A stretch of DNA of 64,000 bases from contig CAMDGV010000001.1 of the NCBI GenBank assembly GCA_945898055.1, forward strand, positions 82,304 through 146,303, read 5' to 3'. Both the position numbers and the translations under genes were made by a program. Below the pieces are notes generated by a model that saw nothing but the letters and a program-made list of their open reading frames with translations, was not told the DNA's origin and did not search any database. The DNA is from Akkermansia muciniphila (GTDB lineage: Bacteria > Verrucomicrobiota > Verrucomicrobiia > Limisphaerales > UBA9464). Shown here in pieces: positions 31,729 through 39,546 of this stretch; position 1 is the first letter of the stretch; every line of letters starts with the position of its first letter.

Positions 31729-32115
31729 TCAATTCTCAAAGAAGTCAAAATCACTTCTACCTCTGGGAGGAATATCAAGAATGGACCGGAAGGTTAAGGA
31801 ATCCAAGTCTGGGGGTAGTCGAAGTGCCCAACCGGATGGGGTCACACTTTCCGGTCCGTCGGCAGAACTCGCCGAGGCTGACGGCATGCAGAGCACGGGA
31901 ACAAAGGCCGGACTGTTTTGGGAGGCGATGGACTGGGTGGGCTGCGGTGACTGGGTTGGATGAGTGATCCGTAGCCAACGACCCATCGAGAGACGATGAA
32001 CACCCAATCTCCCAGCAAACTCAGTCTTCGAGAGTCCCGAGTTTTTAAATTCAGCGATCCGCAGTTGGATTTCAGCAAGACCACAACGCTTCTTAGACGA
32101 TACCATTGAGTTCAT
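31729..32115 (-). mobile_element. IS66-family accessory protein TnpA remnant
   Basis: A 128-residue frame resembling IS66 TnpA. The N-terminal helix-turn-helix reads LRIAEFKNSGLSKTEFAGRL and VHRLSMGRWLRI; the C-terminal strand reads PSGWALRLPPDLDSL. It ends RSDFDFFEN, unlike the usual TnpA end. No TnpB or transposase TnpC follows (left of it is the fusion gene), so the element is incomplete. A GTAAGCG-type IS66 outer end lies 60 bp upstream (see that entry). Confidence 0.62.
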
Positions 32116-32334
32116 CCGCGCAGTCTATCCCCAAGCAGGACGAATTGGGAACCCTGGGCTTGGGCGTACGCTTACATTTATTCACCCTGAGCCACGAGTT
32201 TGTCCACCTACTCTTTCATTTGGGCCGCGCCGCGCACGGCGGCAAAAGGTCGGATGCTTCTGCGCCGACCGACACCGTCGCGATCCTCCTCTTTTCCAGT
32301 GCCGCCTTTCACCTTAAGGCCCGTGATAAGTGGA
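32116..32334. other. GC-rich region beyond the IS66 relic
   Basis: About 220 bp between the IS66 TnpA start and the receiver fragment. It is more GC-rich than its flanks around 32208-32300, and open frames exist on both strands but none has a recognisable domain. The IS66 outer end falls inside it. Confidence 0.4.
32161..32175 (-). repeat. Candidate IS66 outer inverted-repeat end
   Basis: On the minus strand the sequence GTAAGCGTACGCCCA begins at 32175 and reads towards the TnpA gene, whose ATG lies about 60 bp further on. IS66 elements typically start with GTAAGCG. The matching right end is not visible near 31684-31730, consistent with a truncated element. Confidence 0.5.
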
Positions 32335-32472
32335 TCAGCGGGTCCCCGCGCCAGCGCGCCCGTCGGCCGTAGTGAGAGCGTGGAAACCATTGAGCGTCAT
32401 TAGATCCACCAAGGTTTCGCGGCCAGCCGCGTTGTCCTCAATGATCAGAAGGGTGGTCTGACGGGGCGGTTT
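32335..32472 (-). pseudogene. Truncated response-regulator receiver domain fragment
   Basis: A 45-residue frame directly after the stop of the 1065-residue kinase, in the frame +2 relative to it. It reads through TTLLIIEDNAAGRETLVDLM and LNGFHALTTADG, the first beta strand, acidic pocket (Glu-Asp) and second strand of a receiver domain, then stops at 32335-32337 before the phosphoacceptor Asp. The preceding kinase ends in TFTVVLPRV, the normal end of an ATPase domain that is often joined to a receiver. No start codon is obvious, so it looks like a broken former hybrid kinase or lost partner regulator. Confidence 0.68.
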
Positions 32473-35400
32473 CAGCGTTGGGTCACCCGCGGAAGCACCA
32501 CGGTGAAAGTTGTACCGCCAGCGGTGCGGCTGCTCACCTCTATCGTGCCTTGCAGTAAACCAACCATCCGCTGCGCAATATTCAGACCCAAACCGGTGCC
32601 GGCGATCTGCCCGATGTTGGAACCTCGTTCAAAGGGCTCAAAGATGCGGGCCTGATCAGCGAGGGGGATGCCGATGCCTTGGTCATCAAGCTCCACGATA
32701 GCCGCCTCGACCGTGAAACGGAGGCGCAGGGTGATCACGGTGCCGGCGGGTGAGTAACGCACGGCGTTGCTCAAAAGATTGGAGAAAATATGCTGCAGCA
32801 AATTCGGATCACTCAGAAGTGTAGGATCCGCCGTCGTGGAGGCTAGGTGGAATGTATGCTGCTCACGATCGACCAATTTACTTTCGTCCAGAATGGCCTG
32901 CAGCCTCTCCTCCAAATTCACCGCGCACCATTGAAGCTTGAGCCGGCCAGCATCGGCTTGATTTAACACTAAGATATCATCCAGCATCCGGTTCATTTGC
33001 TGCAAGGAGGCCGTGATACGCCCCAATAGGGCCTGCCGCTTGACTTGATCAAGCCGGTCGAGATGGTACGTGAGAATCTCCACCGATCCCAGGGCCGCCG
33101 CCATCGGCGTGCGAAATTCATGGGAGGTCACAGAAATAAACTGGGTCTTCATCTGTGAAATGTTCTTTTCCTGTTCCAGCATGGACGCCATCTGGATGGA
33201 GGCTGTCCGATTGGCAGAGACGTCGCGGACCACACAGATCGCCTGAGGGCCCTGAGGTGATTGGATGGGCCTCAAGGAAACTTCAGCCGGAAATTCGCTT
33301 CCATTCTTGCGGCGAACCTTAAAATCCACAGCACCTTCCGTCATCGGATGTTGGAGGAGCGACTGCGGGTACGACGATTGCAAGACCGCAGGGTCCTTCG
33401 CCTTTAGAAAAGGAATGAGCAACTCGATCGGCTGGTCGAGGAGTTCGTTGGCGGCGTAACCGAAGAGCAATGCAGTGGCGGGATTAACCAGTTCGATGTT
33501 ACCCGAGGGGGCCACGACGATAATAGCATCAGGCGAAGCATCCACCAACGAGCGGTAACGATTTTCGCTCAATTGAAATTGCGTCTGACGATCCTGAGCG
33601 AGTTGCTGCAAATCAGAGGTTGCCCGTTGCTGAGTTTCTTCAGCCGCTTTTTGCTGCGTCAGGTCGCGGACCGTGGCCAAAATAAATGAAGCTCCGCGAC
33701 CATTTATGGAGTTAAGCGTGAATAGGGCTATAAAATTACTGCCATTCGTCCGCTGAAAAAGCCATTCATTAGATTGATAATTCTGAGTGAGCATCTGCGT
33801 AAATATCCGCTTCCTTTTTACCCTTGAAAGTTCCCCATTGGGTTGGAATGCCGGCGATATTTCTCCAGGCCCTAGGGCTAGAAATTCGGCTTCACTTGAT
33901 ATGCCAAACAGGGCGAGGGCGGCAGGGTTACACGATGTAAAACGCCCCGTGTGTGGATCAATCGTTCCCACCGGCCCCGCGGAATGTTCAAAAATTGCGC
34001 GATAGCGCGCTTCGCTCATCTTCAACTCTTCCGCAATTCTGCCTAATTCTTCAGCTTGCGTCTCGAGGTGCTTCTTAGTTGCCAGTTCCCGCGCAGCCTC
34101 AGCCCTTTCCTGCGTCAGGTCACGAGTGGTAGCCACAATCACCCAGACTCCATCAACTATAATTCGAATCTGCGTGATCCGTGCCGGAAAAACACTGCCA
34201 TCGGCTCTTTTATGAAACCACTCGATGCTACTGTACGGAGCCTCATTCATCTGCCGATGGAGTTCACGCACTGCTTCTACCGAAGACCTTCCATCCGGCT
34301 GGAACTCGGGCGACAAATCTTCAATCGACAGGCGAATGAAGGGCGGTAAACCGGGCAGCCCAAACATTTTAAGCAGAGCTGCGTTTGCCGTTTGATAGAG
34401 GAATGTTGCCGGATCGATCGTTCCGATCGCATCAACACTATGTTCAAAAAGAGCGCGGTAATAAGCTTCCCTCTTTTCGAGGCGTTTCCCCGCTGCGACC
34501 AACTGGTCTTGATGCACTTGGCGCTGGCGGGTAACTTCGCGCTCATCCGTGAGATCGTGCAGGGTACAAAGCAGGAAAAATCGTTCTCCGGTTTGTAAGC
34601 GGTCGAGCGAGGTAAGCCCCAAAAAGCCAGTGCCATCGCCTCTAGTCCAAAGCCATTCAAACGTCTCCGAGCCTTTCTCTAAAGCCTCGGTAATTTTCTG
34701 AATGAAGAGCTCAGAAGATCTTCGATCATCCGTTTGCTGTTTGGGCGGCAAAATGCCCGGGATTTCCTTGCAAAATTCAGCTTCCGTGGAAATGCCGAAC
34801 AACACGAGCGCCGCCGCGTTGCAGGTGGTAAATCTCTTAGTGTCCGGATCAATGGTCGCGATCGCATCCCGACTGCCCTGATAAATAAGCTTTAAATATT
34901 CAGCCTGTTCTATCCGCGCCTGACTTTGTGCTTGGATCTGGCGGGTCTGCTGCTCGACCGCTTGTCGGAGACTTATCTCCAGTTTAAGTCCAAATCTCTT
35001 AAATCCTTTGTACCAATAACTCATCACAAAAATAGACACCACAAGGAGCCCAGACCTGATTAAGGTGGTCCTTTTGATTTGTGAATTCTGTTGCTCACGA
35101 AGAGTGTCGAGATACGTTTCGTAAGTCGCCAGCAGAGAGTGGATTTTTAAAAGGACGACCTCCGAATTCAAGGTAGGCTTCCGCCCAGCCCAGAGCTGTT
35201 CCACAAGCTCGTAATCTTGTGCTAGAACTGCCGCCATCTCGACTGCGAATTTCCCCCGGATATTGAGGTCTTCTTCACGATTGATTAGGAGGAAAGCACT
35301 GCGGCCGGCCGACCTGATCCGCAGGAGCGGAGCGGCCATAGTCTCAAGCTTATCGAGCACTGCCTTTTTTCTGGATGGGTTGAGAGGAAGCTGGAAGAGG

Positions 35401-35669
35401 TAAGCTTCCTCTGCTTGCTTGATCTCCAATTGAAGGGTCTCAGCGGTATGTTTTAGCTGCAGGACTGCCCTCGCCTCAGCGTCCAGATTCTGACCGATGC
35501 TCGGATAAATAAATATGGCAATCGTGAATAGAGCAAATAAACAAAAAAAAACCAAAATAACGTACACCCATTTGGCCCAACCCATGTGGAAATTGTGAAA
35601 TGACTTGAACTGCGGCGATTGGTTGGGGTTAGTCGACGACCAATCAGTGGCGGGCAAAGCAGGCGTCAT
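32472..35669 (-). CDS. Multi-PAS sensor histidine kinase with CHASE3-like sensor
   Basis: A 1065-residue membrane-bound kinase. Order: membrane helix (about 30-58), periplasmic CHASE3-like helical region (about 60-205), second membrane helix (about 208-225), four PAS domains (about 265-370, 405-515, 560-670, 700-810, each opening with a DAI- or GTIDP-type motif), HisKA with TSHEFRTPMAA (His near 850) and an ATPase with DDQGIGIP and GTGLGLNIA. The cognate receiver is missing: only a broken fragment follows. It is downstream of a second kinase gene with a 71-bp gap and shares its upstream element. Confidence 0.9.
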   Translation of the reverse strand: MTPALPATDWSSTNPNQSPQFKSFHNFHMGWAKWVYVILVFFCLFALFTIAIFIYPSIGQNLDAEARAVLQLKHTAETLQLEIKQAEEAYLFQLPLNPSRKKAVLDKLETMAAPLLRIRSAGRSAFLLINREEDLNIRGKFAVEMAAVLAQDYELVEQLWAGRKPTLNSEVVLLKIHSLLATYETYLDTLREQQNSQIKRTTLIRSGLLVVSIFVMSYWYKGFKRFGLKLEISLRQAVEQQTRQIQAQSQARIEQAEYLKLIYQGSRDAIATIDPDTKRFTTCNAAALVLFGISTEAEFCKEIPGILPPKQQTDDRRSSELFIQKITEALEKGSETFEWLWTRGDGTGFLGLTSLDRLQTGERFFLLCTLHDLTDEREVTRQRQVHQDQLVAAGKRLEKREAYYRALFEHSVDAIGTIDPATFLYQTANAALLKMFGLPGLPPFIRLSIEDLSPEFQPDGRSSVEAVRELHRQMNEAPYSSIEWFHKRADGSVFPARITQIRIIVDGVWVIVATTRDLTQERAEAARELATKKHLETQAEELGRIAEELKMSEARYRAIFEHSAGPVGTIDPHTGRFTSCNPAALALFGISSEAEFLALGPGEISPAFQPNGELSRVKRKRIFTQMLTQNYQSNEWLFQRTNGSNFIALFTLNSINGRGASFILATVRDLTQQKAAEETQQRATSDLQQLAQDRQTQFQLSENRYRSLVDASPDAIIVVAPSGNIELVNPATALLFGYAANELLDQPIELLIPFLKAKDPAVLQSSYPQSLLQHPMTEGAVDFKVRRKNGSEFPAEVSLRPIQSPQGPQAICVVRDVSANRTASIQMASMLEQEKNISQMKTQFISVTSHEFRTPMAAALGSVEILTYHLDRLDQVKRQALLGRITASLQQMNRMLDDILVLNQADAGRLKLQWCAVNLEERLQAILDESKLVDREQHTFHLASTTADPTLLSDPNLLQHIFSNLLSNAVRYSPAGTVITLRLRFTVEAAIVELDDQGIGIPLADQARIFEPFERGSNIGQIAGTGLGLNIAQRMVGLLQGTIEVSSRTAGGTTFTVVLPRVTQR

Positions 35670-35690
35670 AGCAAGGTAGCGATCGAATTC

Positions 35691-35705
35691 AAGCGGCTAG
35701 TGCAA
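35691..35705 (-). promoter_or_regulatory. 15-bp element upstream of the 1065-aa kinase gene
   Basis: AAGCGGCTAGTGCAA on the plus strand, 21 bp before the kinase start codon. A near-identical copy (one base different) lies 23 bp before the start of the neighbouring kinase gene. The conserved spacing suggests an operator, a promoter part or a duplicated leader. Confidence 0.5.
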
Positions 35706-35740
35706 GGGCGTGGCGTGGCTGGATGATTAAACCTGGATGT

Positions 35741-37306
35741 TTAAACCTTGAGTTCCGCTGGATCGGCTAGAGTGGCCTCAAGTCCCCACATCGGAATCCG
35801 CACGCGGACAAGCGTGACGCCCGCTTGCGAGACAATCGTCGGTTTGGATCGCACCAAGGCACACAAGTGAAAGACGATGGCCAAGCCGATTCCGAGGCCC
35901 TGTTGAGCGAAGTCGGCGCGGCCAAATTGGCAGAAGGCCGCGATCCCGCAGACCTGTTCAGGGGTGAAAGCGAGGCCCTCATTCTGGACAGTGAGCTCAT
36001 ACTCGGCTGCCGTTAAACGCCGGCCGTTGACTTTGACCGGCGTTCCCTTCGTTGAAAATTTAAAAGCGTTTTCCAATAATTCGAGAACTAAGGTGGAGAC
36101 ATAGCTCGCGGCCATTTGCAGGCCAGCGGGCTCTAATTGGAGGGAAAAGTCGCCCGTACGATCCTGCTCGGAAGCAAGGTTACGGCATTTTGCGCTCGTC
36201 GCGGAGGTCCAAGCGGTGGCGGGATTTGCCTGAAAATGCGCCGTCACTTTCGCGGGTTGGGTGATGATTTCGACCCACATGGTAAGCAGTTGAATTTGTT
36301 TATGCAGGCGGCGAGTCGAGTCACCAATGCGCCCGCAGGATTCGAGCACTGTATGTGACGACAGGGTCGGTTGGCCGCGAGCATCTGCCGCCAGCAAGTC
36401 AACAAAGCAGCTAATCCCGCAGAGTGGCGTGCGGAGTTCATGCGGCAAGGACTCGGCAATTTGCAGACGCAGTTGGGTAAATTGAGCTAAATGGCGGCGG
36501 GAATTTTTCAGTTGGCACGAGATCGCCTCGCGGAGGTCTTTCAACGTGAAAGGTTTGGTCAAATAATCATTAGCTCCGGTGCTCATCCCGGTGCGCACAT
36601 CAGATTTGTCGGCCCGCGCGCTGATGAAAATGAGCGGTATAGCCTGTAGATGCTGGTGCGTCTGAGTGTGGGCCAGCAGGAGGTAACCATCGCCCTGCGC
36701 CATCATAATATCCGACAAAATTAAATCCGGCAGTTCCTCGGTGTTGGTGAGATATTGGACTGCTTCATCCCCGCCACTGGCACAATCAACCACATAGCCA
36801 TCGAGGATTAGCAAATCGGCCGTGGTTTCACGAATCGCTTCATCATCCTCAACGAGCAGAATGCGAGCTACGGGTTTGGTCTTATTAGTCATAAGAAATT
36901 GGTTTTTGGACGTGGAAGGAAGGAGGCGTTCAGTCTGCTTACGAGTGAGTTCATCAAGACGCACCGGCGGCCCCGATTCGTCGCGACTGGGAAAGTAGTT
37001 CGTAAAGAAGCGACAACTGAGTTCAGTGATGCCATTGCGTCGATAAAAAGTAGCTTGGATCTGACCGCTAACCGCATGGTGGATCGACAAACAGAGTTGC
37101 CAGTCTTGCTCCAATCTCTGCTGTTGAGTCTCGTTTAGAAGGGACAGAGACATCGCATTACACTCTTGCTGGGAGAGGTCGTCTTGATCGGCGAGAATAA
37201 TTTCACCAGCCACATGAAATGCCGGTGGAGACCCCGCCATCAACTGGAGATCAGAAGCTCCCAATTCAGCGGCGCAGGCAAGGAGTCCATTCAACCTTGA
37301 GTTCAT
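35741..37306 (-). CDS. PilT-type N-terminal domain fused to receiver and histidine kinase
   Basis: A 521-residue cytoplasmic protein with no membrane helix. Residues 1-105 resemble the N-terminal domain of the pilus retraction ATPase PilT (LLACAAELGASDLQLMAGSPP, then VAGEI, then LSIHHAVSGQIQATFYRR), but the ATPase core is absent. Residues 147-262 form a receiver with VEDDE, phosphoacceptor Asp199 in DLILSDIMM and Lys251 in TKPF. HisKA follows with SLPHELRTP (His289), then an ATPase with ELLENAFKFS (Asn413) and GLGIGLAIV (470-478). The architecture suggests a sensor that reports on pilus-like or self-assembly state. The PilT-N call is from motifs only. Confidence 0.78.
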   Translation of the reverse strand: MNSRLNGLLACAAELGASDLQLMAGSPPAFHVAGEIILADQDDLSQQECNAMSLSLLNETQQQRLEQDWQLCLSIHHAVSGQIQATFYRRNGITELSCRFFTNYFPSRDESGPPVRLDELTRKQTERLLPSTSKNQFLMTNKTKPVARILLVEDDEAIRETTADLLILDGYVVDCASGGDEAVQYLTNTEELPDLILSDIMMAQGDGYLLLAHTQTHQHLQAIPLIFISARADKSDVRTGMSTGANDYLTKPFTLKDLREAISCQLKNSRRHLAQFTQLRLQIAESLPHELRTPLCGISCFVDLLAADARGQPTLSSHTVLESCGRIGDSTRRLHKQIQLLTMWVEIITQPAKVTAHFQANPATAWTSATSAKCRNLASEQDRTGDFSLQLEPAGLQMAASYVSTLVLELLENAFKFSTKGTPVKVNGRRLTAAEYELTVQNEGLAFTPEQVCGIAAFCQFGRADFAQQGLGIGLAIVFHLCALVRSKPTIVSQAGVTLVRVRIPMWGLEATLADPAELKV

Positions 37307-37329
37307 AAATTTATTAATCGGGCGGATTT

Positions 37330-37344
37330 AAGCGGCTAGCGCAA
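37330..37344 (-). promoter_or_regulatory. 15-bp element upstream of the PilT-N kinase gene
   Basis: AAGCGGCTAGCGCAA on the plus strand, 23 bp before the kinase start codon. It matches the copy at 35691-35705 at 14 of 15 positions. On the coding strand it reads TTGCGCTAGCCGCTT. The function is unknown. Confidence 0.5.
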
Positions 37345-37371
37345 AATCATTAGATGATTAGCTTATTACAC

Positions 37372-37419
37372 GATTTGATGATTTTATGATTTTATGATTT
37401 TATGATTTTATGATACGAT
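37372..37419. repeat. 8-bp tandem repeat GATTTTAT
   Basis: Four perfect GATTTTAT units (37380-37411) flanked by two degenerate ones (GATTTGAT before, GATACGAT after). Six units in total with no interruption. Such short repeats mutate by slippage, so copy number may vary between strains and tune expression from the adjacent promoters. Confidence 0.85.
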
Positions 37420-37660
37420 GTTTAGAGGCTACTTTACCAACCAAAAATTATGGCTATAAAATTAGCTGATCCATTGATTAAAAAAAGTTTATAATGCGAA
37501 CAACTTTTAAAAATATTTTTTAAATTTTGAATCGAGAATTCGTTTCTCCGGCAGTTCTGGTCGTTCCATTCCCGTTTGAATCCAGCCTCCATCCCGTGGT
37601 GACACGACGATATCAATTCGACTTGTTTAACTTAGTGCCTGAAGCAACGTTTGTAAAAAA

Positions 37661-39331
37661 ATGAATCTTTGCTTTGGTTGCTTTGTAACGGTGCCGGCTT
37701 TGGCTCGTGAAGTTGCGAGAGTCACTCTTCCGCTTTTGCTGCTCGCGGGTACTTCTGTGGCTTTGGGTCAGGGAAAACCATTAGAGGGTGAAATGTCAGG
37801 ATACCTTCTCGTACCTCACGAAAAGGTTCCGGACACTTTCAATGCTGGTTTTTCTCTCTATGTTGCCGCGTGGCCATTGCTGAATAAATACCCCGGCGAC
37901 CGATTTCAGACCGGGCTCTTTGGGACTTGGATGTTTGCCCAATATGCTCAACCGAAGCCGAAGGATCTCTATTCCGATATCGAGGGTGGCTTAGGCTGGT
38001 GGCGAGATACCCGCTTTGCTACTGAGACGCCGAAATTCATTATGGGCGGAGTCACCCTTAATTTTAATGAATGGGCTAATGGACCTGGTGCTGGCAAAAG
38101 TCGGGATTGGGAAAAACCTCTCGGTGTTTATGGGATAGCGCAACTCAGTCCTTGGGTCCTATGGCCTCCCGATGGACTTAACCTCAAGCAAGGAACTTGC
38201 GGTGACCTGTTTGGCTATGGCTATTTGCCACTACCACTGACCGAGTCCAAGACAACCACTGCCGGACAACCGGTGCCAACCGGTGATCAGTCTTGGACTC
38301 TTTTTCTCAACACCGGCAATTTCAAAGGGCCGGTTTCCTTTTTTACTCCTTATTACTGGTCTGGTGTCACCGCCAAAAAAGTTGAGCATGCTGGTAAATT
38401 TCTCGACTCGCGTCCGTCGGAGCCTAATAAGGCCTTACAGATGGAGACTCAGTATGTGCCTAGTTTTCAGGCCGTCGACTCTCAGGGAGTCACTTGGGCG
38501 CGCATTGCTCCAGCCGCGTTTCCCAATAATGCCAAGGGTGACTCGATGCTCGTCCATCAGGTCACCGCCTATGACCGGTCCGCTCTCTGGAATTCGGTAA
38601 AAGCATGGTTTCAAGAGGGCAGTCCGGCCTCTGGCACCGTGGATCAAAAGGGGGCGGCTGTGCATACTTTTACCAGCAAGGGCGGATCTACTTGGCGGAT
38701 TTATTCACCCAAGACTCCCAAAGAAAAGAAAGTGCCGATCGCTTGGAAATCTTTTGCCACTCCTGTCGCTCTCGATGCACATACCTATGGGTATCGTTGG
38801 GACGAAAAATGTGTTACAAAAGCCCAGTCTAAAGACGGGCCATTAGTTATTTTACCCCAATACTTTCGTCTTCGTCAGGAAGGGGAGCAAAAACCGGAAT
38901 GGGTGGTCGTTCAGGAAAAAGAGGTACCCCTTGAGACCGGGCTTTCTCAGGTTGAATTTTATCGTCGAAAAAAAGAGCGACCAGAACCGTATGTCACCCC
39001 AGATGCGCCACAAAGCCCTTGGAAATCGCCCGGACCTGCGGCCGGCCCCTTTCGGGTGAACCTCGGCGATGGCAGCGTTCTTACTTATTATTGGTACCGA
39101 TTTGCTGATCAACCCGCCTTGCTTCACGCAGACCTCTCGAAGAGCGAACGTGAAGTCCTCCAAAAGCGGGTCGAAAAAATTCATAGCCTCTGGACGAAGG
39201 AACGTGAGTATCTCCCGCCTCCCGCCGTTGGTAAACTCGCCAATCTAGATCCAGCGTTACTGGTGGTCCCACCCCGGGGGATGGAGGTAGGTTATGTTCC
39301 AATTGTAACTCGGCAAGCCGCCGGAGACTAG
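37661..39331 (+). CDS. Secreted protein of unknown function
   Basis: A 556-residue protein. Residues 1-36 look like a signal peptide (LPLLLLAGTSVALGQ), so it is exported. The rest is rich in Trp, Tyr, Gly and Pro and mostly beta, with segments such as GYLLVPHEKVPDTFNAGF, LNTGNFKGPVSFFTPYYWSG and VLTYYWYRFADQPALLHADL. I do not recognise the family. No catalytic motif stands out. It starts with ATG at 37661, preceded by an AT-rich region. A short gap separates it from the SurA-like gene, a possible folding partner for exported proteins. Confidence 0.7.
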   Translation: MNLCFGCFVTVPALAREVARVTLPLLLLAGTSVALGQGKPLEGEMSGYLLVPHEKVPDTFNAGFSLYVAAWPLLNKYPGDRFQTGLFGTWMFAQYAQPKPKDLYSDIEGGLGWWRDTRFATETPKFIMGGVTLNFNEWANGPGAGKSRDWEKPLGVYGIAQLSPWVLWPPDGLNLKQGTCGDLFGYGYLPLPLTESKTTTAGQPVPTGDQSWTLFLNTGNFKGPVSFFTPYYWSGVTAKKVEHAGKFLDSRPSEPNKALQMETQYVPSFQAVDSQGVTWARIAPAAFPNNAKGDSMLVHQVTAYDRSALWNSVKAWFQEGSPASGTVDQKGAAVHTFTSKGGSTWRIYSPKTPKEKKVPIAWKSFATPVALDAHTYGYRWDEKCVTKAQSKDGPLVILPQYFRLRQEGEQKPEWVVVQEKEVPLETGLSQVEFYRRKKERPEPYVTPDAPQSPWKSPGPAAGPFRVNLGDGSVLTYYWYRFADQPALLHADLSKSEREVLQKRVEKIHSLWTKEREYLPPPAVGKLANLDPALLVVPPRGMEVGYVPIVTRQAAGD

Positions 39332-39399
39332 GTCTACAGACTTTTGAACTCAAAAGCACTCAAGAGGGTACGCCGATCCGCCTTGAACCCCAGACCCAA

Positions 39400-39546
39400 A
39401 TGTTGCTTCACCTATTTCCCCGAGTGCTCCTGCTGGTTGTCCTTCTTCATCCATTGGTTGCGGAACAACCAGTTTCGGCCTCATCTGAGTCTTCTGCCAC
39501 TGATGTTGCAAAGGTGTTTCATTGTCCGAAATTTAGACGAGGATAA
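39400..39546 (+). CDS. Possible small secreted peptide
   Basis: A 48-residue frame, absent from simple ORF lists because of its size: ATG at 39400, then a strong hydrophobic signal-like segment (LFPRVLLLVVLLHPLVAEQ) and a short Ser/Ala-rich and basic tail with one Cys. Stop TAA at 39544. It lies between the secreted protein and the SurA-like gene. No Shine-Dalgarno is evident, so it may be a chance frame or a gene fragment. Confidence 0.3.
   Translation: MLLHLFPRVLLLVVLLHPLVAEQPVSASSESSATDVAKVFHCPKFRRG

Follow-up and report, generated by a model that had tools for sequence, protein, structure and literature searches.

The window (the whole 64,000-nt stretch of DNA that was analysed) carries two adjacent kinase genes on its minus strand, the upstream one preceded in frame by PilT-like coding sequence (Table 1). 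An ORF check of the window found the 521-codon frame unbroken from ATG to stop. Pfam recognized in it Response_reg (residues 149–262), HisKA (281–339, just below the cut-off, at 24.7 bits against 26.9) and HATPase_c (404–506, E = 1.5e-9). The receiver (PF00072, E = 5.7e-24) has its phosphoacceptor Asp at residue 199 and the conserved Lys within the motif LTKPF, which is placed at 249; the H-box PHELRTPL, with its His at 289, and the N box are intact. No PilT-N hit for the N-terminal stretch was returned by Pfam, and the N-terminal fragment alone matched PAS_4 below cut-off (E 0.007), which simply fits the PAS-like fold of the PilT N-domain. A phmmer search against solved structures aligned residues 9–125 with PilT (2ewv/2gsz, E = 1.7e-9), and the PilU structure 9n32 was also matched by the N-terminus (2e-6). 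Upstream of the chimera lies a divergent gene for a 556-aa protein (37661–39331, plus strand) with no Pfam match at E 0.01.

Table 1. Features at the chimeric locus, in window coordinates
Feature	Coordinates	Strand	Basis or remarks
Long chimeric ORF, 521 aa	35741..37306	minus	ATG at 37306, stop at 35741
Internal pilT fragment, duplicated, frame open	36931..37309	minus	DNA match to the genome's own pilT, and phmmer
Junction/linker, ~13 codons (RLLPSTSKNQFL region)	36893..36930	minus	Between duplication edge and conserved start
Receiver-histidine kinase (REC-HisKA-HATPase_c), 383 aa	35741..36892	minus	Pfam and standalone relatives; probable native ATG is M139
Multi-PAS sensor histidine kinase, 1065 aa	32472..35669	minus	Pfam; ~70 bp downstream of the chimera
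Presumed IS66-type left-end remnant	31763..32176	minus	Edge of lineage-specific segment; dispersed matches

The first-pass annotation had described this ORF as a PilT N-terminal domain without its ATPase, fused to receiver and kinase domains, and had called the architecture unusual. Both statements hold. GASDLQL (residue 16), VAGEI (residue 32), Asp199 and His289 all lie where it had placed them; its assignment of residues 1–105 to PilT agrees with the phmmer match; Pfam, phmmer and the DNA match described below confirm the in-frame fusion; and REC-HK proteins are normally without PilT-N. Structure prediction modelled the chimera as a confident REC-HK, with residues 1–142 below 50 pLDDT nearly throughout. 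Because a genuine PilT given an equally shallow alignment was also poorly modelled (mean 35), the prediction is uninformative on the folding of the PilT fragment.

The source of the N-terminal part was found in the same genome. Window 37309..36931 gives a single ungapped 379-bp match, with sharp edges and 91.3% DNA identity, to a stretch (G000:C14:8752-9130; L002 1495-1873) inside a gene for a 361-aa PilT on contig C14; identity of this degree to a pilT of the same genome means that the PilT resemblance is not due to chance. The donor surpasses the curated TIGR01420 cut-off (363.7 bits against 319.1), also matches T2SSE, and is by these sequence criteria a bona fide PilT. The copied part spans donor codons ~8–134, the PAS-like N-terminal domain, and ends just before Walker A, which in the donor reads GPTGAGKTT. 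ORF residues 1–125 are thus a 91% DNA-identical copy of the N-domain of a PilT/PilU retraction ATPase. Compared with that family, the ORF is missing the first ~7–8 codons and the RecA-like ATPase domain, with Walker A/B and the Asp and His boxes, and has lost conserved His and Arg residues (H29Q, R39H, R84H, R90Q and R92Q relative to the donor). A PilT match extending beyond the N-domain (67% over 2–175) was discarded as alignment overrun; the DNA match stops at 36931. The genome contains no third pilT copy and no flank shared between the two copies.

At 109 N-domain columns that are invariant among the PilTs of seven congeners, fragment and donor have 34 differences in common, which places the copying within this lineage; private changes at those columns number 13 in the fragment and one in the donor. 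Between fragment and donor dS is 0.17, slightly below the 0.20–0.38 obtained for four genes when this genome is compared with G008, the nearest relative sampled. G008 itself has no close ortholog of the donor PilT (best match 37%, in an assembly that is 86% complete).

The kinase half has an independent existence elsewhere. In a collection scan, the same kinase turned up as a standalone gene on two contigs from MAGs of uncultured Verrucomicrobia, L032 (381 aa) and L033 (382 aa), at 80% amino acid and 81–86% DNA identity. Residues 139–521 of the window ORF align end to end with both, including Asp199, His289, the N box and G2, and the start Met of both aligns with M139. Both also have a TAA in frame, one codon before the ATG, which rules out any N-terminal extension there. 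The G1 box at residues 442–446 (window 35969–35983) reads NEGLA/NEGRA rather than DxGxG in all three genes, so kinase activity in this subgroup may be reduced. Dozens of REC-HKs about 35% identical to the window kinase occur in the order, with the receiver at their N-terminus. Standalone proteins of the order (for example L032, L033, L009-L019 and L039-L055) have the same receiver-first, kinase-output layout, but in-frame coding sequence upstream is found solely in the window gene. Receiver domains are also present in 22.8% of histidine kinase genes (PMC3018481). As in hybrid kinases generally, receiver and transmitter lie within one protein; here the receiver is ahead of the kinase, the usual order within this REC-HK group. 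By DNA comparison, none of the 18 further genomes in the genus has the kinase gene, and the rest of the family shows no more of it than one 67-bp piece.

The fusion was found in one genome only. Among the matches listed for the full-length query against 320 genomes of the order, none spans both PilT-N and REC-HK; each covers one half or the other. A true relative of the whole chimera would head such a list. Recurrence in Verrucomicrobiota, to which the first-pass annotation had looked for support, therefore has no second case at the order level.

That annotation had also named a frame error joining two genes near 36965 as something that would speak against its reading. A junction is indeed present, at 36931, but it is an evolutionary in-frame join, and no sequencing error is evident. 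The linker between the duplication edge and M139 has no match to pilT and probably once served as the 5′ leader of the kinase. The ATG that opens the ORF sits right at the upstream duplication edge. A Shine-Dalgarno sequence was recognizable at neither start (37306 or 36892), and promoter-like matches were weak and not decisive between the two (three found, against 1.2 ± 1.2 in shuffles). L032 and L033 share a conserved leader, which is missing here. A 14-nt element, CTAGCCGCTT(A/G)AAT, occurs on the minus strand at 37339 and 35700, ~35 nt upstream of the chimera and of the PAS kinase gene, and nowhere else in the window; it is possibly a promoter element shared by the two genes. A ATAAAATC tandem repeat of 4–5 units (minus strand, about 37366–37408) lies in the AT-rich leader that precedes the chimeric ORF.

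The two halves of the ORF differ in how they have evolved. With changes polarized by the congeners' PilTs, 16 amino acid changes fall to the fragment and two to the parental PilT (Tajima relative-rate p = 0.001), or 13 and two when junction codons are excluded (p = 0.0045). The nonsynonymous fraction in the fragment lies inside the range of neutral simulations. In the fragment core, 13 of 16 amino acid differences fall at columns invariant in all eight PilTs, against a background of 61% invariant columns, so conserved sites have not been avoided; changed invariant residues include the H of GASDLHL, several R (to H or Q) and an L to P. The N:S contrast between the two PilT copies was no more than suggestive (Fisher p = 0.08–0.11). 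In the kinase half, pairwise dN/dS is 0.29 against L032 and 0.14 against L033, indicating constraint, with the window lineage faster than the L032 and L033 lineages and its dN somewhat raised. On these comparisons, whose numbers are small, the PilT fragment is seen to drift without detectable constraint and the kinase to stay constrained.

We interpret the ORF as a recent, lineage-specific chimera generated by partial pilT duplication, with the kinase probably still made from its own ATG and the PilT part a drifting passenger, and we put the probability of this explanation at about 0.82. Duplication of a pilT piece upstream of the kinase is shown by the donor match and its edges; passenger status is what we infer for the fragment. 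The 379-bp internal piece was copied directly upstream of a pre-existing standalone REC-HK gene, its frame happening to run on through the kinase 5′ leader into the kinase ATG. On the small numbers above, the fragment has drifted since, the kinase remaining constrained. The working product would be an ordinary REC-HK begun at M139 (36892), and the PilT part either untranslated leader or an unselected N-terminal tail. From domain content and gene order, Asp199 would be phosphorylated by a partner, for which the downstream multi-PAS kinase is a plausible candidate, and the phosphorylated receiver would control its own kinase domain; a homolog of the multi-PAS kinase (67% DNA match) lies near the REC-HK gene of L033 as well. 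Counting against this explanation are the frame itself, still open with no stop or frameshift in the fragment, the ATG at the duplication edge, the no more than suggestive N:S contrast, the lack of a recognizable Shine-Dalgarno at either start, the somewhat raised dN of the window's kinase lineage and the occurrence of the chimera in a single genome; as to the open frame, neutral simulations with 20–30 substitutions gave odds of 34–49% for zero stop codons. Most likely, the chimera arose by evolutionary accident and does not represent a new type of sensor.

The insertion might matter through regulation alone, the fragment having replaced the kinase promoter and leader and so changed how the REC-HK gene and the kinase gene behind it are expressed, with the peptide irrelevant. 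Loss of the leader conserved in L032 and L033, and the placement of CTAGCCGCTT(A/G)AAT before both minus-strand genes, speak for such rewiring, and the weakness of the promoter-like matches speaks against it. We regard this as possible but less likely than not; it is compatible with the passenger explanation.

A functional fusion is improbable. The whole 521-aa protein would be made, and its PAS-like domain would dock or sense, for example in PilT rings, coupling retraction to the receiver-kinase. Such a role would draw on an uninterrupted frame that opens with an ATG, on the full PilT partner encoded in the same genome, and on the behaviour of PilT/PilU N-terminal domains, which are PAS-like and bind the C-terminal (catalytic) domain of the neighbouring subunit (PMC13142100). 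Against this, the matches listed from the 320 genomes hold no second case, the fragment evolves neutrally with invariant PilT residues changed, the join lies within former leader sequence, and close relatives work without a PilT part. The first-pass proposals of a link from pili to phosphorelay, or of a reused binding module, are not supported either: the fragment is a recent pilT duplicate that evolves as if unconstrained, and the relatives' REC-HKs are without it. A variant of the idea restricted to this lineage, in which a newborn, translated copy of the PilT N-domain enters PilT rings, poisons them or acts as a sensor of PilT and so couples pilus retraction to the receiver-kinase, is equally doubtful, although contact between a translated fragment and such rings is conceivable in principle. 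An assembly or binning artefact, in which the kinase was wrongly linked to pilT sequence from a different strain, could be suggested by a draft genome in 136 contigs and a chimera seen once, but is very improbable: a contig of 153 kb would have to be misjoined twice to take in a mere 379 bp, a sequence that matches its donor at 91% is no collapsed repeat, and the fragment combines 34 lineage-specific residues common with its own PilT and 13 changes of its own.

Under the passenger explanation, the locus shows that a striking "new domain architecture" can be a by-product of partial gene duplication. The example is a clear one: the donor is known, as are the two edges of the copied piece, and congeners serve to polarize the changes. 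It also cautions that domain fusions should not be named from single draft genomes. Were the fusion in fact translated and selected, it would represent a new two-component architecture caught at birth.

Both kinase genes lie in a lineage-specific segment, since its flanks match G008 and its interior does not. The match to G008, at about 87–92% DNA identity, ends at window 31684 and resumes at 39512, on two different contigs of that assembly, and the ~7 kb from about 32180 to 39511 have no DNA match on these two flanking contigs. The insertion sequence remnant at the edge of the segment contains a tnpA-like ORF (31729–32115) and has about 49 matches dispersed through the genome at 75–93% identity (most at 84–90%), many of them truncated. 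Most share a common end, GTAAGCGTACGCC... / GTAAGCGTACGCCCAACCCCATGGTTCCC; from the form of this end and the tnpA-like ORF we take the remnant to be of IS66 type.
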